Positions 1,948 to 17,494 of a stretch of 54,261 bases of DNA are shown here, piece by piece. Numbering within the stretch: the first letter of the stretch is position 1; each line of letters opens with the position of its first letter. The DNA lies in contig JAKOVT010000156.1 in NCBI GenBank assembly GCA_029781935.1, positions 1 through 54,261 of the forward strand, written 5' to 3'. A program made the position numbers and the translations under genes. Origin of the DNA: Actinomycetes bacterium (lineage in GTDB: Bacteria; Actinomycetota; Actinomycetes; S36-B12; CAIYMF01). The notes beneath the pieces were generated by a model, which saw nothing but the letters and a program-made list of their open reading frames with translations, did not search any database and had not been told where the DNA came from.

Positions 1948-2721
1948 GTGAGCCCGCTTCCACGAACCCGAGTCCTGGGGGGCACGGCGGCAGCCGCGCT
2001 GCTCGGGGGTGCCGCCCTCGCCCTGCTCGCGCCCGGGACCGCGCCGGTCGCGGCCAGCGCGGCGCCCGGGCAGCCGGTCGAGAACGACTACGGCCAGTCG
2101 GCCAACGAGGTCGCGGCGGAGATCGCCGTCGTCGTGAACGCCGACGCCGGCGTCGTCCGGACGCGCGCGGCGCTGATCAAGGCTCGCGACGTCGTGCTCG
2201 TGCGAGCGGCGATGGAGTCCCGGGCCCGCGCCGCCTACCTCGCCGCCGTCCGTACGCGGATCAAGAGCCGGATCACCACCACCTACGCCGCCTACCTGGC
2301 GGCCAAGGCGGCCACCGCGCGCGCCAAGAGCGCCTACACCGCCGCGGCGAAGCTCTACACGAGCGCGCGCGCCACCGCGACCGCGCGCGTCACGGCGACG
2401 CACTACCAGCCCAAGGACGGGGTGTGGACGGGCACGAAGAAGTCCTACCTCGTCCCGAGCCAGCCGATCTCGTTCGAGCCGATGCAGGTGCAGATCACCG
2501 TGTACGGCGGTCACGTGAGCGATGTCGTCGTCACCGCGCAGGCGGAGGCAGGCACCGACTCGGCGTCGTACAACGACATGTCCCTCAGCACGCTGGCGCT
2601 GCAGGCCATGGCCGCCGACGGCACCTCGGCGATCGCGGGCGTCAGCGGCGCCACGCTCACCACGGGCGCCTTCCGCTCGTCGCTGCAGTCGGCGCTCGTC
2701 GCCGCCGGGTTCACGGGGTGA
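1948..2721 (+). CDS. Secreted FMN-binding-domain protein (flavinylated electron carrier)
   Basis: Predicted exported flavoprotein of 257 residues and first gene of the flavin operon. An N-terminal signal peptide runs to about A38. A helical region of about 110 residues starting APGQPVENDYGQSANEV follows, then a C-terminal FMN_bind domain (about 155-257). In this family ApbE joins FMN phosphate to a threonine in an S/T-G-A-T motif; here the motif is SGAT, with the acceptor at T236. The Asp often found three residues before the motif is absent. The helical N-terminal region is clearly related to that of the next protein, so the two are paralogs. The stop is 7 nt before the next start, which implies co-transcription. 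The start is GTG with AGGA only 2 nt upstream, so the start is less certain than the frame. Confidence 0.85.
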   Translation: MSPLPRTRVLGGTAAAALLGGAALALLAPGTAPVAASAAPGQPVENDYGQSANEVAAEIAVVVNADAGVVRTRAALIKARDVVLVRAAMESRARAAYLAAVRTRIKSRITTTYAAYLAAKAATARAKSAYTAAAKLYTSARATATARVTATHYQPKDGVWTGTKKSYLVPSQPISFEPMQVQITVYGGHVSDVVVTAQAEAGTDSASYNDMSLSTLALQAMAADGTSAIAGVSGATLTTGAFRSSLQSALVAAGFTG

Positions 2722-2728
2722 TGCGGGG

Positions 2729-5278
2729 ATGACGACCACGGCCCTGCGCACCGGCGGCAAGCGTGTCGGCGCCGCTGCCGCGGGCACCGCCGTCCTGGTG
2801 TCCACCGCGGCCGGCCTCGTGGCCGGTACGCCGTCGCCCGCCGGGGCCGCAGCCGCCCCGGGCCAGGACGTCCTCAACGACTGGGGCCAGACGGTCGCCG
2901 AGGTGCAGCAGGAGATCGCCGTCGTCGTCGACGCCGACACCCGGGTGATCGCGGCCCGCACCCGCTACCTCAACGCGCTGTCGGCCTACGCCTCCCTCAA
3001 GCAGGTCCAGCGGGTGGCGCGCACGGCCTACTCGACCGCGCTCGCCACGCGCACCAAGACCGACGACCCGGTGGCCTACCAGCGCCTGACCGCCATCAAC
3101 ACCAAGGTCTTCGTCGCGGCCCGCGAGGTGGCGGCATCGCAGCTGGCGATGGTGAACATCGTCGACTCGGTCACGGCCGCCGTGAAGGCCACCCACTACG
3201 TGCAGGCGCCGTACGTCGCCAAGCCGGCCGAGGTCACCGGCCTCGCCACGGTCGGCGCCTCGGGGCAGGTCACGGTCTCGTGGACCCCTCTGCAGGACGC
3301 CGCGAGCTACCACGTCTACCGCGACGGCAGGATGATCGGCACGACGATCAGCCCGGGCTACGTCGACACCGGTCTCGACAACGGCTCCGCGTACGCCTAC
3401 ACCGTCGTCGCCACGAACGTGGCGGGCTGGTCGCCCGTGTCGGCCGAGGTCGTCGGCGTGCCTACGGCGGTCGCGCCCTCCGCTCCGTTCGACGTCGTCG
3501 CGGCGCCGGGCGACGCCTCCGTGCATCTGGCGTGGACCGCCGTGCCGTCGGCGACGTCGTACGAGGTCTACCGCAACGGGACGCTGGTCGGCTCGCCGAC
3601 CGCGCCCGAGTTCGTCGACGCCGGCCTCGCGAACGGCACGTCGTACTCCTACACGGTGAAGGCGCTCAACGGCCTGACCGCGTCGACCCCGTCGGCGGCC
3701 GTGCCCGCCACCCCGGTGGCTACCGCGCCCGCGGCGCCCACCAACCTCGTGGCCACGCCGGGGAACGCGACGGTGGGCCTGTCGTGGTCGGCACCGGCCG
3801 GCGCCACGTCGTACGCGGTCTACCGCAACGGCTCGGTCGTGGCGACGACACCGTCGACGACGTGGACCGACAGCACGGTCGTGAACGGGACGACGTACTC
3901 CTACTACGTCGTCGCGTACAAGCAGAACTCGTCGGCCTCCCCGGCCTCGGCCACCGTGACCGCGAAGCCGGTCGCTCCCCCGCTCGCGACGCCGACCGGT
4001 CTCGCGGCGACCCCCGGCAACGCGACGGTCTCGCTCGCCTGGGGCTCGGTGGCCGGGGCCACCGGGTACGACGTCTACCGCAACGGCACCAAGCTCACGT
4101 CGACCGCGGGGCCGTCGTACACCGACAACGCGGTCAGCAACGGCAGCGCCTACAGCTACTACGTCGTGGCGACGAGCGCGACGTCGTCCTCGGGCGCGAG
4201 CGCCACCGTCACCGCCACTCCGGCGGCCCCCGCACCCGGTGCGCCCACCGGGCTCTCGGGTGTGGCCGGCGACCAGACCGTCACCCTCACGTGGAACGTC
4301 GTGGCGGGCGCGACGTCGTACAACGTCTACCGCAACGGGACGCTGCTCAAGACGGGCCTGGCCGGCAACACCTACACCGACTCGGGGCTCACGAACGGCA
4401 CGGCGTACACCTACGAGGTCACCGTCATCAAGACCGGCGTGGAGTCGGCGCGCTCCGCTGCGGTGCAGGTGACTCCGTTCGTCATCACGCCCGCGGCCCC
4501 CACCGGGCTCGCGGCCACCGCGGGGAACGCGCAGGTAGCGCTGTCGTGGTCGCCCACCGCGAACGCCCAGTCCTACAAGGTCTACCGCGGAGCCACCCTC
4601 GTCACGAGCGTGACGACGACGAGCTACGTCGACACCGGGCTCACGAACGGCACCGCGTACACCTACACGATCGTCGCGGTGAACGGGTCGGCGTCGTCGC
4701 CGGCGTCGACCGCCGTGTCCGCCACGCCGATGGCGCCCGCACCCGCGCAACCGACCGGCCTCACGGCCACCGCCGGCAACGCGCAGGTGGCGCTGACGTG
4801 GAACGCGGTCCCGACCGCGACGTCGTACCGCGTCTACCGCGGCGGCGTCCTGCGCACGACGGTCGCCACACCGTCGTTCACCGACACCGGCCTCACCAAC
4901 GGCACGGCGTACACGTACTACGTCACCGCGGTCGCCGCGACCACGGAGGGGCCCGCGTCGTCGTCGGTGTCCTCGACCCCGGCCAAGCCGCCGGTGAACG
5001 GCACGTTCACCGGCAGCATCGTGGCGATCGCCTCGAAGCACGGCACGATCCAGGTCGTCATCGTCGTCAGCAACAGCGTCATCACGTCCGCCAAGGGCAC
5101 TCTGCTCACCAACGACGGGTCCGAGACCGTGAAGATCAACTCGACGGCGCTGCCGCAGTACGACACCAAGACGGTCGCTGCGCAGTCCGCCACCATCACC
5201 AAGGTGTCGGGCGCGAGCCTCACCTGGACCGCCTACAAGACGTCGCTGCAGTCGGCGCTGACCCAGGCGGGGCTGTGA
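2729..5278 (+). CDS. Secreted protein with seven fibronectin type III domains and a C-terminal FMN-binding domain
   Basis: Large exported protein of 849 residues. A signal peptide runs to about A42. A helical region resembling that of the upstream paralog follows (APGQDVLNDWGQTVAEVQQE). Seven consecutive Fn3 domains of about 84 residues occupy roughly 166-753, each with a YxVYR core strand and a variant of DTGLTNGTAYTYTV. The last ~95 residues are an FMN_bind-like domain. Its acceptor motif reads SGAS rather than SGAT, so the residue at the flavin site is S830, not threonine. The Fn3 array probably acts as a rigid spacer that spans the cell wall; this is inference. ATG 2729 is chosen because it lies just after the upstream stop and begins a good signal peptide. 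The stop codon overlaps the next start (GTGA). Confidence 0.88.
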   Translation: MTTTALRTGGKRVGAAAAGTAVLVSTAAGLVAGTPSPAGAAAAPGQDVLNDWGQTVAEVQQEIAVVVDADTRVIAARTRYLNALSAYASLKQVQRVARTAYSTALATRTKTDDPVAYQRLTAINTKVFVAAREVAASQLAMVNIVDSVTAAVKATHYVQAPYVAKPAEVTGLATVGASGQVTVSWTPLQDAASYHVYRDGRMIGTTISPGYVDTGLDNGSAYAYTVVATNVAGWSPVSAEVVGVPTAVAPSAPFDVVAAPGDASVHLAWTAVPSATSYEVYRNGTLVGSPTAPEFVDAGLANGTSYSYTVKALNGLTASTPSAAVPATPVATAPAAPTNLVATPGNATVGLSWSAPAGATSYAVYRNGSVVATTPSTTWTDSTVVNGTTYSYYVVAYKQNSSASPASATVTAKPVAPPLATPTGLAATPGNATVSLAWGSVAGATGYDVYRNGTKLTSTAGPSYTDNAVSNGSAYSYYVVATSATSSSGASATVTATPAAPAPGAPTGLSGVAGDQTVTLTWNVVAGATSYNVYRNGTLLKTGLAGNTYTDSGLTNGTAYTYEVTVIKTGVESARSAAVQVTPFVITPAAPTGLAATAGNAQVALSWSPTANAQSYKVYRGATLVTSVTTTSYVDTGLTNGTAYTYTIVAVNGSASSPASTAVSATPMAPAPAQPTGLTATAGNAQVALTWNAVPTATSYRVYRGGVLRTTVATPSFTDTGLTNGTAYTYYVTAVAATTEGPASSSVSSTPAKPPVNGTFTGSIVAIASKHGTIQVVIVVSNSVITSAKGTLLTNDGSETVKINSTALPQYDTKTVAAQSATITKVSGASLTWTAYKTSLQSALTQAGL
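3224..4990 (+). repeat. Seven tandem Fn3-encoding repeats (~252 bp each)
   Basis: Seven in-frame units of about 84 codons encode successive Fn3 domains. Neighbouring units share conserved stretches for VYRNG and TNGTAYTY, and units 5-7 are the most alike. They are domain duplications inside a gene, not a CRISPR array or mobile element. Confidence 0.85.
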
Positions 5279-6849
5279 GCGGCGGTGCGGGCTACGACGC
5301 CCGCTACCTCCCGCAGGGCTCGGGAGCCTTCCTGCCCGAGCCGTTGGCCGCCGCCCCGCTGTCCGAGCCCGCGCACGCGGGGCTGCTGCTCGCTCCGCCC
5401 ACGGGCGCGCCGGTCGACGAGGCGCTCCTGCCTCCCCTCCCCCCGCAGTTCGCCCCGCCGCCGCTCCCGACGACGCCGGTCGCGACACCGGCACCGGCAC
5501 CCGTGCGGCCCACCGTCCGCCGGGGCGTCGCCGCGCGCGGTCGCAGCAGCCGTCGCGGCGACATCGCCATCACCATCGGTGGCATCGGTCTGGGCATCTC
5601 GCTCGGCATCGCGGTGTACGCCGTCAAGGACGGCCTCGATCTTCCGGGGGGCAAGCTCCTCGCCGCGGGAACGGTCGCGGCGATGGTGGGCACGTACCTC
5701 TGCCTGGTCCTGCTCCTGCTCGTGTCGCGGATCCCGTGGCTCGAGCGCGAGATCGGGCACGACCGCATGGTCGCGCTGCATCGCACCGTGGCGCCGTACT
5801 CGATCTTCCTGATCCTTGCCCACGTGCTGCTCACGACCCTCAGCTACGCGCAGTCGCTCGAGCGGGGCTTCGTGGCCGAGCTGCTGCAGCTGGTCCTGCA
5901 CTCGGCCTGGATGATGCCGGCGGCCGCCGCCTTCGTGCTGATGATGTCGTTGGGCGTCATGTCCTACCGCCGGATCCGGCAGCGGATGAAGTACGAGACG
6001 TGGTGGGTCGCGCACCTCTACTTCTACATCGCCGTCGCGTTGTCCTTCGGACACCAGATCGCCAACGGACCCATGTTCGTGGCGCACCCCTACCAGCGCC
6101 TGTTCTGGACCGGCCTCTACATCGCCGTCGCGACCACCATCGTCGTGGCCCGCGTGATCATGCCGGTGTCCTTCTCCCGCAAGCACGACCTGCGCGTCGC
6201 CGCGGTCGTGCCCGAGAAGGACGGCGTCGTCTCGGTCTACGTCTCCGGTGTCGACCTCGACCTGCTCAAGGCGCGCGGCGGCCAGTTCTTCCAGTGGCGG
6301 TTCATGACCCGCGACTGGTGGTGGCAGGCGCACCCGTACTCGCTGTCGGCCTCGCCGAACGAGTCGTGGCTGCGCATCACCGTCAAGGACCTCGGCGACC
6401 ACTCGCGCAGCCTGCGCCGCATGAAGGTCGGCACGCGCGTCCTGGCCGAGGGCCCGTACGGCGTGTTCCATGCCGGCTCGCGCAGCACCGACACCGTGGC
6501 CGCGTTCGCCGCCGGCGTCGGCGTGACGCCGATCCGCGCGGTGCTCGACGACCTGCCCGACGGCACGTCGGTGACCCTCGTGTACCGGGTGGCGGAGCGG
6601 TCGACCGCGCCGCTGCACGAGGAGCTCGAGGCGCTGGTGTCCGAGCGCGGCTGGCGCATGCACTACCTGCAGGGCCCTCGCCGCCACCACCCGCTCACCG
6701 CGGAGTACCTCGAGCACCTGGTCCCCGGGATCGCCGCCTCCGACGTGTTCGTCTGCGGGCCGGACTCGTTCACGGAACGCATCGTCGAGGCGGCCGAGGC
6801 CGCTGGAGTGCCCCACGACCGCATCCACCACGAGGCGTTCGCCTTCTGA
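5275..6849 (+). CDS. Ferric-reductase-like transmembrane flavocytochrome (FAD/NAD(P)H-binding)
   Basis: Membrane oxidoreductase of 524 residues, predicted to move electrons from cytoplasmic NAD(P)H through FAD and heme across the membrane. The first ~90 residues are a Pro/Ala-rich cytoplasmic tail. About six membrane segments follow (about 96-300). They hold two His pairs that fit bis-heme ligation: H169/H183 and H247/H260, spaced 14 and 13 residues. The C-terminal half is a ferredoxin-reductase-type module with HPYSLSASP for FAD, GVGVTPIRAVL for the nucleotide and VFVCGP near the end. The GTG start overlaps the previous stop by 4 bp, indicating translational coupling to the Fn3/FMN protein. 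The exported FMN proteins alongside are its likely electron acceptors. It belongs to the wider FRE/NOX-like family; the natural terminal acceptor is unknown. Confidence 0.9.
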   Translation: MSGGAGYDARYLPQGSGAFLPEPLAAAPLSEPAHAGLLLAPPTGAPVDEALLPPLPPQFAPPPLPTTPVATPAPAPVRPTVRRGVAARGRSSRRGDIAITIGGIGLGISLGIAVYAVKDGLDLPGGKLLAAGTVAAMVGTYLCLVLLLLVSRIPWLEREIGHDRMVALHRTVAPYSIFLILAHVLLTTLSYAQSLERGFVAELLQLVLHSAWMMPAAAAFVLMMSLGVMSYRRIRQRMKYETWWVAHLYFYIAVALSFGHQIANGPMFVAHPYQRLFWTGLYIAVATTIVVARVIMPVSFSRKHDLRVAAVVPEKDGVVSVYVSGVDLDLLKARGGQFFQWRFMTRDWWWQAHPYSLSASPNESWLRITVKDLGDHSRSLRRMKVGTRVLAEGPYGVFHAGSRSTDTVAAFAAGVGVTPIRAVLDDLPDGTSVTLVYRVAERSTAPLHEELEALVSERGWRMHYLQGPRRHHPLTAEYLEHLVPGIAASDVFVCGPDSFTERIVEAAEAAGVPHDRIHHEAFAF

Positions 6850-6901
6850 CCCCGACGCTCCGGTCGCCCACGCGACCGGTCCCGATCCCAGGAGCCATCC
6901 C

Positions 6902-7564
6902 ATGAAGCGCGCGATCCTCGTGACGAGCGGCACGCTCGCCGGCCTCGCAGCCGTCCTCACCTACTCCGGCGCCGATCAGGTGCCGGCGATGGCCTCGGGC
7001 CCGTCCGACGCGGCCGCGCTCGGCGCGCCGCCCGCCATCGACGACACCCCCTCGGACCAGCCGTCGGCATCGCCGAGCTCGCCGTCGGGGGCCGCCTCGA
7101 CCCCGACCGCGGCGGCCTCCTCGGCAGCGCCGGCGCCGACCAAGGCGGCCGCCGCCACGACCAAGGCTGCTGCCGCCCCGACCAAGGCGGCCGCCGCTCC
7201 GACGAAGGCGGCTGCCGCGCCGACGCCGGCGCCCACCAAGGCGGCCGCTCCGAAGCCGACGCCGACACCGACCCCCAAGGCGACCGCGACCGGGCCCAAG
7301 GACTACCTCGGTCCCGTCATCACGCACAAGTACGGCAAGGTCCAGGTCGGCATCCGTGTGCAGGGCGGCAAGATCACCGCCGCCTGGGCCGCCGTCTACC
7401 CCACCGGCGACTCCCAGCCCTACACCGACTTCTCCATCCCGGTGCTCAAGTCGCAGACCGTCAAGGCGCAGTCGGCCAACATCGCGGGCGCCAGCGGCGC
7501 GACCGAGACCACGAACGCATGGAAGAAGTCGCTGCAGGGCGCGCTGTCCAAGGCCGGCATCTGA
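6902..7564 (+). CDS. Small exported FMN-binding protein with Ala/Pro/Lys-rich linker
   Basis: Exported electron-carrier candidate of 220 residues. An N-terminal hydrophobic stretch (residues 4-22) acts as a signal peptide or anchor. A long low-complexity linker rich in Ala, Pro, Thr and Lys follows, including repeated APTKAAA units. The C-terminal ~90 residues are an FMN_bind domain with SGATET, the acceptor threonine being T201. The layout of membrane or secretion signal, flexible linker and flavin domain resembles proteins that pass electrons over the cell surface. The ATG has AGGAG about 8 nt upstream. It lies 52 nt after the flavocytochrome and 24 nt before apbE, so it belongs to the same operon. 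Confidence 0.87.
   Translation: MKRAILVTSGTLAGLAAVLTYSGADQVPAMASGPSDAAALGAPPAIDDTPSDQPSASPSSPSGAASTPTAAASSAAPAPTKAAAATTKAAAAPTKAAAAPTKAAAAPTPAPTKAAAPKPTPTPTPKATATGPKDYLGPVITHKYGKVQVGIRVQGGKITAAWAAVYPTGDSQPYTDFSIPVLKSQTVKAQSANIAGASGATETTNAWKKSLQGALSKAGI
7137..7260 (+). repeat. Ala/Pro/Lys linker repeats, about 21 bp per unit
   Basis: Several imperfect 21-bp units encode APTKAAA or ATTKAAA within the linker of the small FMN-binding protein. Copy number could vary by slippage. Confidence 0.6.
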
Positions 7565-7588
7565 GTGGTCGTGCGCCAGGATGACCCG

Positions 7589-8425
7589 GTGACCGAGCGC
7601 ACCGACGGAGTCCCCGACCCGTCCGCCGCCCCCGAGGTGGCGCCGGGCATCTCCTTCGCCGACGCCGGGCCGTGGCAGAGCCGCCTGCACGTCGAGCACG
7701 TGTGGGGCACGGTCGTGACGTTCGACCTGCGGGCCGAGGCCCTGCCGGACGACGTCGACGCGATCCTCGCGGACGCCGTCGGCTTTCTCCACCAGGTCGA
7801 CGCGTGGTTCTCGACGTACCGGGCCGACACCCCGATCACGGCACTGCGCAACGGGCTCATCGAGGAGTTCCGGCTGCCCGCGGTGGTCCGCGACGTGCTC
7901 GCGTCCTGCGCCTGGGCCAAGCAGCTCACCCACGGCGCCTTCGACCCGTGGGCGGTCAAGGGCGGGGTCGACCCGTCGGGCTACGTGAAGGGCTGGGCTG
8001 CGGGCCAGGTCGCCGACCAGATCGTGCGCCGCGGGGTGCCGAACGTCTGCGTGAACGCCTCGGGCGACATCGCCTGCCGCGGCGAGCAGCGACCGGGCGA
8101 GCCATGGGCCATCGGCATCGTGAACCCTTACGACACGCAGCAGATCATCGAGGTCGTCCACCTCTCCGACGGCGCGATGGCGACCAGCGGCCTGTACGAG
8201 CGGGGCGAGCACATCCGCAACCCGCGGACCGGCACGGCGCAGGTCCACTACGACTCGGCGACCATCGTGGGCCCGGACGCCGGCCTCGCCGACGCCCTGG
8301 CGACCGCCGCGCTGCTCGAGGGTCCCGGCTGCGCGGCGTGGTTCGCCGGACTCCCGGGCTGGTCGGTCTACCTCGTGAAGGACGGGCAGGCCCAGTTCTT
8401 CGTCCCCGCGTTCGACCGGCGGTAG
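7589..8425 (+). CDS. apbE: FAD:protein FMN transferase (ApbE)
   Basis: Transfers FMN from FAD to a threonine of FMN_bind-domain proteins, with Mg2+. The 278-residue protein has the expected family motifs: DPSGYVKGWAAGQVAD, then VNASGDI, then ATSGLYERGEHIRNPRTG, and near the C-terminus the metal-binding DAGLADALATA. I see no clear lipoprotein signal, so it may act in the cytoplasm or reach the outside by another route; many ApbE proteins are exported. GTG 7589 is preferred because AGGA (7578-7581) lies 7 nt upstream; GTG 7565 is an alternative. Its place at the end of a run of three FMN_bind proteins makes those its natural substrates. Confidence 0.93.
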   Translation: MTERTDGVPDPSAAPEVAPGISFADAGPWQSRLHVEHVWGTVVTFDLRAEALPDDVDAILADAVGFLHQVDAWFSTYRADTPITALRNGLIEEFRLPAVVRDVLASCAWAKQLTHGAFDPWAVKGGVDPSGYVKGWAAGQVADQIVRRGVPNVCVNASGDIACRGEQRPGEPWAIGIVNPYDTQQIIEVVHLSDGAMATSGLYERGEHIRNPRTGTAQVHYDSATIVGPDAGLADALATAALLEGPGCAAWFAGLPGWSVYLVKDGQAQFFVPAFDRR

Positions 8426-9551: not shown

Positions 9552-10775
9552 ATGCCCGACCCGACGGATCGCCCGCCGCTGGTGGTGTACGGCGCCCCGT
9601 GGTGCCCGGACTGCCGCCGCAGCAAGGCGTTCCTCTCCGAGCAGCGTGTGCCGTTCACCTTCATCGACCTCGAGCAGCATCCCGAGGAGAACGCCGCCGT
9701 CGAGCGATACAACGACGGCAAGCGGATCATCCCCACCATCGTCTTCGCCGACGGTTCGCACCTCGCCGAGCCGACCGACGAGGAGCTGGCCGCGCGTCTC
9801 GGTCTCGCGCGCGACGCGGCGCAGACGTCGTACGACCTGGTCATCGTCGGGGGCGGGCCCACCGGCCTGACGACGGCGATCTACGCCGCGCGCGAGAACC
9901 TGCGCACGGTGGTGATCGAGCGGTCGGCCCTGGGCGGCCAGGCCGGCGTCACGGAGCGCCTCGACAACTACCCCGGCTTCCCGGACGGGATCGCAGGATC
10001 CGAGCTGGCCGCGCGGTTCGTGCAGCAGGCGGAGCGGTACGGGGTCGAGCTGCTGCCCGCGGTGAGCGTGGCCGGGCTGAGCACGATCGACGGCAGGTCG
10101 ATCGTCACCACGTCGACGGGCCAGGACCTCCACGCGGCCGCAGTGCTGGTCGCGACGGGGTCGACCTACCGCCGCACGGGCGCCGAGGGCGAAGGAGATC
10201 TCATCGGCGCGGGCATCCACTTCTGCGCGACGTGCGACGGCCCGTTCTACCGCGGCGCGGCCGAGGTCGTGGTGATCGGCGGGGGCAACTCGGGCTTCGA
10301 GGAGGGACTGTTCCTCACCCAGTTCGCCGAGCACGTCACGATCGTCGTGCGCACCGAGCCCGTCGCCTCCCGGCTGCTGCAGGACAAGGTGGCCGGCCAT
10401 CCGCGGATGACCGTGCTCACCGGCACCGAGACGATCGCGTTCCACGCCGACCAGCACGGCAAGCTCGCCGCCGTGACCCTGCGCGGGCCCGGAGGGGAGG
10501 AGTCACAGCACCCCGCCTCTGCGGCGTTCGTGTTCGTCGGTCTCGACCCCAACACCGGCTGGCTCGGCGGAGCGCTCGAGCTCGACGCCCGGGGGTTCCT
10601 CGTCACCGACCGGATGATGCAGACCTCGGTGCGCGGTGTCTTCGCCGCCGGTGACGTCCGCAGCGGCTCGACCAAGCAGCTCGCGTCCGCCGTCGGCGAG
10701 GGCGCAGCGGCGGCGCTGCAGATCCGCGCGCACATCGACGAGCTGCGCGACGGCGGCAGCGACACGGCGGCCTGA
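9552..10775 (+). CDS. Glutaredoxin-thioredoxin reductase fusion protein
   Basis: Flavin-dependent disulfide reductase of 407 residues with its own glutaredoxin module. Residues 1-90 are a glutaredoxin/NrdH-like domain with active site C18-P-D-C21. From about residue 95 it is a complete thioredoxin reductase: GGGPTG for FAD, redox-active C225-A-T-C228 followed by DG, GGGNSG for NADPH, and GVFAAGDV near the end. Electrons probably run from NADPH through FAD and the CATC pair to CPDC in the same chain, then to an unknown client. The ATG has GGAG 6 nt upstream. It is a stand-alone gene followed by a strong hairpin. The architecture appears in other actinobacteria but is less common than separate trxA and trxB. 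Confidence 0.92.
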   Translation: MPDPTDRPPLVVYGAPWCPDCRRSKAFLSEQRVPFTFIDLEQHPEENAAVERYNDGKRIIPTIVFADGSHLAEPTDEELAARLGLARDAAQTSYDLVIVGGGPTGLTTAIYAARENLRTVVIERSALGGQAGVTERLDNYPGFPDGIAGSELAARFVQQAERYGVELLPAVSVAGLSTIDGRSIVTTSTGQDLHAAAVLVATGSTYRRTGAEGEGDLIGAGIHFCATCDGPFYRGAAEVVVIGGGNSGFEEGLFLTQFAEHVTIVVRTEPVASRLLQDKVAGHPRMTVLTGTETIAFHADQHGKLAAVTLRGPGGEESQHPASAAFVFVGLDPNTGWLGGALELDARGFLVTDRMMQTSVRGVFAAGDVRSGSTKQLASAVGEGAAAALQIRAHIDELRDGGSDTAA

Positions 10776-16555: not shown

Positions 16556-17494
16556 ATGGCCGTACGTCGTACCGGTGCCGCGGTGCTCGTCGCGGGCGCT
16601 GCGCTCATGTTGACGGCGTGCGGCTCGGGCAGCGTCACGCTGCCCACAGCGAACCCCAGCCGCACCCTGCCCTCGATCACGACGACACCGTCGGTCCCGA
16701 GCCGTACGCCGAGCACCCCGACACCGACCAGCCCGACACCGACTCCGACCGCCACGGACACCGCGACGGCGACCGGCACGACGACGCCGAGCCGGACCGC
16801 CTCGGCCAGCGCCACGAGCACCTCGCCCACCCCGACTCCCACTCCGACCGAGACCACCCCGACGCCGACTCCGACGCCGACCCCCACGGAGACGTCCGCC
16901 ACTCCGACGCCGACGCCCACCGAGACCACGCCCACGCCGACCAGCTCCTCGCCGAGCGCGACCGCGACCGCATCGCCCGGTTCGAGCTCGGCGGCGCCGC
17001 AGCCGGCCGGGTCCAGCACGCCGTGGTGGCCCTGGCTGCTCGTCGCGGCCGCCGTGGTCGCCGGCTTCGTCTGGTGGATGCTGGCCAGCGGGAAGCGCCG
17101 GACCTGGGACACCGCCTTCGCGAGGAACAGCGCCGAGGCGCGGTGGGCTGCCGACGTGCTCGCACCGTCGGTGGTGAACCGGGCCATCCCCGCGGACCAG
17201 GTGGCCTCGCAGTGGCCCGACAGCAAGCGGCGTCTCGACGACCTCCAGGCGGCCCTCTACCAGCAGCAGGCCGACATCCCGAACCCCGAGCGCGCCCAGC
17301 GGCTCGGCGTCGTCACCGGCGCCCTCACGGCGCTGACCGAGGCGCTCACCCACGACGTCGCGCTCCGCACCGGCGGCACCGGACCGGACGACGCCGAGCT
17401 CCTCGCGTCGGAGCAGGCGGTGAACCACGCAGCGGCGACCCTGTCGGCTGCCGTCGCGGGGACGCCGACCCCGGGTTCGCACTCGGCGAGCTGA
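16556..17494 (+). CDS. Pro/Thr-rich lipoprotein with one transmembrane segment
   Basis: Protein of 312 residues. The N-terminus is a lipoprotein signal with lipobox LTAC, Cys at about position 21. A Pro/Thr/Ser-rich stretch of about 110 residues follows, full of TPTPT. Residues about 157-178 (PWLLVAAAVVAGFVWWML) form a strong membrane segment, and the last ~130 residues are a soluble helical domain containing RRTWDTAFARNSAEARWAADVL. This would leave the lipidated end and the PT-rich part outside and the helical domain in the cytoplasm. The C-terminal region resembles actinobacterial proteins of unknown function. ATG with GGGAGG 7 nt upstream. Confidence 0.75.
   Translation: MAVRRTGAAVLVAGAALMLTACGSGSVTLPTANPSRTLPSITTTPSVPSRTPSTPTPTSPTPTPTATDTATATGTTTPSRTASASATSTSPTPTPTPTETTPTPTPTPTPTETSATPTPTPTETTPTPTSSSPSATATASPGSSSAAPQPAGSSTPWWPWLLVAAAVVAGFVWWMLASGKRRTWDTAFARNSAEARWAADVLAPSVVNRAIPADQVASQWPDSKRRLDDLQAALYQQQADIPNPERAQRLGVVTGALTALTEALTHDVALRTGGTGPDDAELLASEQAVNHAAATLSAAVAGTPTPGSHSAS
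16690..16970 (+). repeat. PT-rich low-complexity coding repeat
   Basis: Imperfect short repeats of the type CCGACNCCGACN encode TPTPT runs in the extracytoplasmic part of the lipoprotein. Slippage at this tract could change its length. Confidence 0.6.

Follow-up and report, generated by a model that had tools for sequence, protein, structure and literature searches.

How electrons traverse a thick Gram-positive wall when no multi-heme cytochromes are at hand is an open issue. The closest described systems are the MsrQ-like clusters (Meheust et al. 2021, eLife; PMC8238504), which, in the parts of that paper available to us, number 1,797 in 1,468 genomes, occur broadly in Actinobacteria and include VIT1 in 153 cases; in these clusters an FMN_bind protein and apbE accompany a heme protein of PF01794, which frequently has an NAD domain as well. 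Here we describe a five-gene block (genes A to E, positions 1,948 to 8,425, forward strand) in a 54,261-nucleotide stretch of DNA from an Actinomycetes bacterium (GenBank assembly GCA_029781935.1, contig JAKOVT010000156.1), referred to below as the window. An earlier reading of the sequence alone (the sequence-only reading) had proposed that three flavin carriers encoded here could act as a graded wire through the wall, and had taken the link between FMN_bind proteins, ApbE and ferric-reductase-like proteins as established. Genes C, D and E fit these systems and represent a core that is already published; what appears to be new is the presence of the whole block across a genus and the exchange of the middle part of its carriers. 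We consider it rather probable that the operon encodes an electron exporter driven by NAD(P)H, together with three flavin carriers on tethers, in which spacers set the reach of each.

The five genes have the coordinates, order and strand reported in the sequence-only reading. A (1,948–2,721; 257 amino acids) is a short carrier made of an N-terminal hydrophobic segment, a hairpin and, joined to it without any spacer, an FMN_bind head; in the long carrier B (2,729–5,278; 849 amino acids), which starts in the same way, seven fibronectin type III (Fn3) domains stand between hairpin and head. C (5,275–6,849; 524 amino acids) is a flavocytochrome of the ferric-reductase/NOX type, with a Pro-rich N-terminal tail followed by heme, FAD and NAD domains. 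D (6,902–7,564) joins a hydrophobic N-terminal segment to an FMN_bind head through a linker of ~100 residues rich in Pro, Ala, Thr, Ser and Lys, and E (7,565–8,425; 286 amino acids) is ApbE, the FAD:protein FMN transferase. Pfam matches exceed their cut-offs for FMN_bind in A (25.1 bits, cut-off 22) and, barely, in D (22.1 bits), for Ferric_reduct (PF01794, 60.2 bits, cut-off 28), FAD_binding_8 and NAD_binding_1 in C, and for ApbE in E (121.8 bits). With A, D and E over their cut-offs and adjacent in the block, apbE and FMN_bind lie within five genes of each other. The described set of three FMN_bind proteins, a ferric-reductase-like protein and ApbE thus holds at Pfam cut-offs except for the head of B (15.8 bits), which was identified by profile comparison. 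Intergenic distances of 7 nt (A–B), −4 nt (B–C) and 52 nt (C–D) were reported correctly; the 24 nt given for D–E applies only if ApbE starts at the GTG at 7,589, and the gap is 0 nt with the GTG at 7,565. Third-position GC content (GC3) is 0.94–0.97 across all five frames. Scans for promoters and terminators returned 0 and 0 (0.2 and 0.9 in shuffles), a result that is hardly informative at 73% GC. The source assembly comprises 4.17 Mb in 517 contigs (95.7% complete, 8.7% contaminated).

Profile comparisons place the heads in a common fold. The B-type head profile matched the D-head profile with a probability of 99.7 and the crystal structure 8P2A with E = 5e-19; according to the available part of its source paper (PMC10339131), 8P2A is SaFMN3-D2 (domain 2) with covalently attached FMN. 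Within this fold lie the predicted flavinylation sites of the form [ST]GA[ST]: SGAT in A (2,644–2,655), SGAS in B (5,207–5,218, in the head at 4,991–5,275) and SGAT in D (7,493–7,504). The pattern [ST][GN]A[ST] was present in 32 of 32 carriers, 19–27 residues from the C terminus, and by hydropathy alone all 32 have an N-terminal hydrophobic segment (best 15-residue values 1.41–2.25). This set contains 8 A, 8 B and 9 D proteins, 2 B′ and 2 F1 proteins from the other genera described below, and 3 carriers of a single-carrier system; F2, F3 and the carriers of genomes G023, G083, G145 and G167 stand outside it. In G007 and G014 the contigs end before D, the assembly breaks the reading frame of F2 in G001, and the head profile A5 excludes one F1 as well as the B heads from G012 and Ww61. 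A, B and D were each found to have a single head and a single motif, in place of the several FMN-binding domains per chain of multi-flavinylated proteins.

A and B both open with a hydrophobic stretch followed by a common hairpin module of 115 residues (2,065–2,409 in A and 2,858–3,202 in B), which profile A2 matched at 123 and 153 bits, respectively, both proteins being among the profile's own rows. The module is gap-free in 15 of 16 copies. The sixteenth, in A of G013, has 137 residues, with 11 extra before and 11 after the turn in both alignments, and was excluded from profile A2. A Pfam scan assigned no family to the module. The sequence-only reading mentioned neither this shared module nor the apparent absence of a signal peptide from ApbE, described below. 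AlphaFold predicted a helical hairpin in A (helices 67–103 and 106–152, pLDDT 96–98 over most of its length); the heads were poor in both models (pLDDT mostly <55), and the hairpin and Fn3 parts alone were used. The A proteins of G005 and G011 were trimmed at a convenient residue, so that their starts are not proven.

Seven Fn3 domains in B, as first read from the sequence, were recovered by two approaches. A repeat hidden Markov model (HMM) delimits seven tandem units of 82–85 residues with Pro/Ala-rich joints (3,221–4,990), and structure prediction followed by Foldseek yielded a tandem Fn3 array with the fibronectin fragments 1fnf and 3t1w among the matches. The Pfam fn3 match scores 93.8 bits; the Fn3-like domains of carbohydrate enzymes RGI_lyase (95.2 bits) and GH85_C (71.7 bits) also pass their cut-offs, as they do in five relatives. 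These matches would fit Fn3 domains that act as binding modules, making B a surface flavoprotein that grips a polysaccharide or particle and whose length is incidental. Conservation by position points the same way: among five species with seven units, identity was 62% between repeats at equal positions and 46% otherwise, the equal position was best in 124 of 140 comparisons, and repeats 6 and 7, nearest the head, were most alike (69–70%), suggesting that the array is old and that each unit keeps its place. However, the HMM counts seven units in G000, G005, G006, G007 and G011 and 11, 13 and 11 in G012, G013 and G014, so the number shifts inside one genus, and in more distant relatives PTDTATPT, TP or PTVPVD linkers take the place of the array, keeping the distance and losing the Fn3 surface. 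We think it unlikely that binding is what the array is for.

The sequence-only reading had advised a search for the Fn3 and FMN_bind layout beside ApbE in other genomes, and held that genes unlinked in relatives would speak against it. We searched 11 genomes of genus g1 with A and found the block, with its genes linked, in eight. All five genes are whole and ordered in G000, G006, G011, G012 and G013; the block of G005 is complete except that ApbE is cut by a contig end, and those of G007 (A–B–C) and G014 (A–B) run into contig ends. The 4-nt overlap of B and C is retained in G000, G006, G007 and G011, with gaps of 33 and 28 nt in G012 and G013. Retention in relatives argues that the layout is not due to chance. 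The protein in the place of A has diverged in G012 and G014, with no NDxGQ module and an FMN_bind match below cut-off. Extra cysteines occur near the FMN_bind motif of diverged A-place proteins (L050 5,105–6,076, L048 10,676–11,821 and L051 2,167–3,375). G012 also has two adjoining FMN_bind-like proteins (L049 6,534–8,863), the first with DUF7507, a further candidate spacer, over cut-off before the head, and G014 has look-alikes of them (L053 989–3,495).

Outside the genus, the base and the head of the carriers recur with different middle parts. Scanning contigs for one peptide pattern from the B N terminus gave eight confirmed loci, six in g1 and two in another family, f30/g63 (L065 and L066, from the metagenome-assembled genomes (MAGs) Ww61 and Ww60). 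The hairpin profile likewise matched 8 of 394 genomes of the class (six g1, two g63) and, among 396 genomes of the phylum, only the source genome itself. In g63 the order is ferric reductase (FR)–D–ApbE–B′; in B′ the Fn3 array gives way to a PTDTATPT linker (58 or 64 residues) between hairpin and head. In G001 (genus g2 of the same family) it is FR–D–ApbE–F1–F3–F2; in F1 and F2 of g2 (G001 and G002), a TP-rich linker and a single Fn3-like domain connect a different helical base to the head. G023 (f3) has FR–D–ApbE–carrier–carrier, with a (TP)n linker on a helical base in the last carrier, and G083 (f7) has D–ApbE–carrier–carrier–VIT1, in whose first carrier a PTVPVD linker is combined with a single Fn3-like domain; an aldehyde dehydrogenase lies upstream. 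G001, G002, G023 and G083 represent other genera of the order. Two short-linker carriers follow FR in a row in G145 and G167, the FR relatives G173 and G168 come with a single carrier, and the contig of G036 ends after one. The single Fn3-like domains of G001, G002 and G083 were detected with the HMM of the window's repeats (42–51 bits), which found no match in carrier c2 of G023, B′, A, D or E; Pfam fn3 did not report the domain in the two proteins scanned. G287, G327 and G252, candidates for Fn3 with FMN_bind among the matches listed for the class, turned out when read to contain linkers of low complexity. By eye, a cysteine flanks the helical base on each side in carriers of G001, G023 and G083 (L077, L096 and L097), suggesting a disulfide that closes the hairpin; these cysteines are absent from the modules of g1 and g63.

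The helical base and head recur while the middle swaps between ordered and disordered forms, a pattern that a spacer would be expected to show, and the exchange among relatives argues that length matters. These comparisons suggest that the middle part sets the reach of the head. They agree with the proposal of a flavinylation-linked extracytoplasmic electron-transfer operon with carriers of unlike length. The graded wire is not supported. Electron tunnelling is limited to ~1.4 nm; with one predicted flavin site per carrier and no cofactor in the Fn3 domains or linkers, a wire is unlikely and electrons would pass only as heads meet. A relay of tethered carriers appears to suit the predicted proteins better.

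C has two His pairs, H-x13-H and H-x12-H, which predict two heme sites, as well as HPYS and either CGP or CGN; all of these are conserved in 10 of 10 members of its clade. A PDB search with C matched the reductase half only. Relatives at E ≤ 1e-70 were found in 109 of 296 genomes of the class. In a tree of 19 C-type proteins, which excludes those of G008 contig 4, G023 and G083 and in which two outer rows are long and unsure, the seven Fn3-operon proteins cluster (100/99) and join the g63 and G001 proteins (97/96); five proteins of single-carrier systems (contig 52 of the source genome, and the genus) fall apart from the operon clade. A second, simpler FR–FMN_bind system was noted at L014 6,238–8,156, L052 5,317–10,451 and L054 5,228–10,079. 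By eye, it is followed in G008 and G007 by apbE and by response regulator and histidine kinase genes; in the source genome kdp-like genes follow instead.

The domain order and His spacing of C are also NOX-like, the spacing of the NOX His pairs resembling that of C. C could thus serve oxygen reduction, with the heads as mobile oxidisable flavins that hand electrons to O2 for defence, signalling or oxygen removal. NOX proteins, whose heme is the site of O2 reduction, are not known to depend on flavin carriers; a set of three that differ in length would be more than this role requires, and no peroxide-handling gene was seen in the block. We regard oxygen reduction as improbable, although reduced SaFMN3, with a potential of −184 mV, can use O2 according to the available part of PMC10339131.

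For the favoured exporter, we propose that C would draw electrons from NAD(P)H in the cytosol and lead them, by way of FAD and two hemes, to the outward-facing side of the membrane, as its domains and histidines suggest. D may collect them on covalent FMN swung on its ~100-residue disordered linker, and an N-terminal segment that stays uncleaved would keep it at the membrane. A and B, built on the common hairpin as a likely docking or anchoring part, would pass them onward. The flavin of A would sit beside the hairpin; an Fn3 domain is ~3.5 nm long, and we estimate that the seven-Fn3 stalk of B, if extended, could place its flavin at ~25 nm. B might have its hairpin at the membrane and its head outward, or its hairpin in the wall and its head inward. 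Transfer would occur through head-to-head contact, with no conduction along the stalk, and the spacers would fix the reach of each head in the wall. In A, B and D alike, ApbE would put FMN on the C-terminal [ST]GA[ST], a step that probably takes place in the cytosol and precedes export. Fe(III), for uptake, is the first candidate acceptor because VIT1 lies beside the carriers of G083 (197.7 bits, directly after them; L097 2,800–3,564) and in the 153 published clusters; a quinone or humic compound, oxygen or a wall protein are other candidates.

Several observations weigh against the proposed exporter. A and B were absent from three of the 11 g1 genomes (G008, G009 and G010), and G008 has the C–D–E core alone (C 54% identical), indicating that A and B are dispensable there. 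The carrier–VIT1 cluster of G083 has no adjoining C-type gene, the sole PF01794 match of that genome being on another contig, and no acceptor gene was seen in the block of the window. The positional conservation of the Fn3 repeats exceeds what a wholly inert spacer would need. A, B and D are single-flavin carriers by prediction. The Asp of D-x-x-[ST]-G-A-[ST] was found in 0 of 32 carriers, and motifs are degenerate in the second carriers of G001 (F3), G023 and G083. Finally, by hydropathy none of 16 ApbE copies has a signal peptide (best values 0.18–1.27, compared with 1.41–2.25 in the carriers), and such an enzyme might not meet exported carriers. E itself, read from the frame opening at 7,565, reaches 0.83 within its first 60 residues and, by hydropathy and reading, lacks the lipoprotein or Sec signal peptide typical of exported ApbE.

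The missing Asp and the missing N-terminal segment would both fit carriers that are not substrates of E, ApbE modifying a cytosolic enzyme and the heads binding free FMN or nothing; in Klebsiella, according to the available part of the review PMC12052999, a soluble fumarate reductase is the substrate of such a cytosolic ApbE. The review terms the motif Asp strictly conserved, yet its change to Ala had a minor effect in Klebsiella, and a seven-residue motif at the terminus suffices as an ApbE tag, which implies that ApbE could act on an unfolded precursor ahead of export. E lies directly 3′ of D in eight intact clusters (G000, G006, G011, G012, G013, both g63 genomes and G001). It aligns with solved ApbEs over residues 135–276 and weakly before, passing through the HI..P.TG, TSG and AD.L.T stretches, which we take to be the catalytic His, Ser and Asp regions; the His, Ser and Asp regions of ApbE are named in the available part of PMC12052999. 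ApbE without an N-terminal hydrophobic segment also accompanies FMN_bind clusters in three other families of the class (L082, L083 and L086). We give little credence to carriers that E leaves unmodified.

ApbE without a signal peptide may mean some other exit path, FMN loading before export, or carriers that are not its substrates. As the carriers are apparently exported, FMN may be attached beforehand. Export of pre-flavinylated carriers by the Tat route cannot be claimed: a [KR]R pair stands at positions 2–3 in all 12 D-type and single-system N termini and is not consistent in other FMN_bind proteins (L055, L058 and L086) or in the B proteins. An open-access literature search turned up no treatment of ApbE without a signal peptide in actinobacteria among the matches listed, as far as their available parts go. 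That interchangeable stalks (none, a disordered linker or 1 to 13 Fn3 domains) on a helical base set the distance of single covalent flavins from the membrane in a group of actinobacterial electron exporters, in combination with cytosolic loading before export, contrary to the accepted order, is a tentative idea that we somewhat doubt as a whole. If ApbE of this kind does serve exported carriers, the order of export first and flavin outside with exported FAD fails here, and perhaps in many other Actinomycetes; the order of loading is the sharper question here. In the source genome, five ApbE genes (contigs 44, 258, 295, 342 and 447; L014–L018) seemingly all lack a signal peptide, none being seen by eye in the other two; the copies on contigs 258 and 295 are nearly identical, from possible duplication or MAG contamination.

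No VIT1 was seen by eye among the genes of the window. Downstream of ApbE (~9,552–10,775), a glutaredoxin-like domain appears by eye to be fused to thioredoxin reductase; it may be unrelated, and this fusion also adjoins the operon in G006 (L044 2,333–3,553). An open reading frame at 16,607–17,494 resembles a lipoprotein, with abundant TPTPT repeats in its first 110 residues.

Compared with known systems, the block shares its core with the MsrQ-like clusters; the hairpin module, the exchangeable stalk and the set of unlike lengths were not seen in the available account of these, and 'Fn3' and 'fibronectin' are absent from its main text (PMC8238504). Wall-spanning flavoprotein complexes were proposed in 2021 for multi-flavinylated clusters, according to the same source. 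Among the matches listed in a literature search (titles and abstract openings), none reported FMN_bind–Fn3 carriers. SaFMN3 and CbFMN4 (PMC10339131, available part) have the same head domain, are exported and are thought to serve long-distance transfer, with three or four flavins per chain, whereas here one flavin site ends a cofactor-free spacer. The natural series of carriers (no spacer, linkers of ~60 to 100 residues, and 1, 7, 11 or 13 Fn3 domains) offers a ready test of reach against function, and, if the proposal is true, suggests a natural means of positioning redox groups outside the cell at defined distances. Extracellular electron transfer in Listeria (FmnB and PplA; PMC9973259, available part) likewise uses an extracytosolic flavinylated protein in a Gram-positive bacterium; there, two sites of PplA are flavinylated and FmnB works outside with exported FAD. 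Unlike Listeria, the system described here has an ApbE apparently without a signal peptide and, as membrane donor, an FRD-type cytochrome that itself includes an NAD domain.
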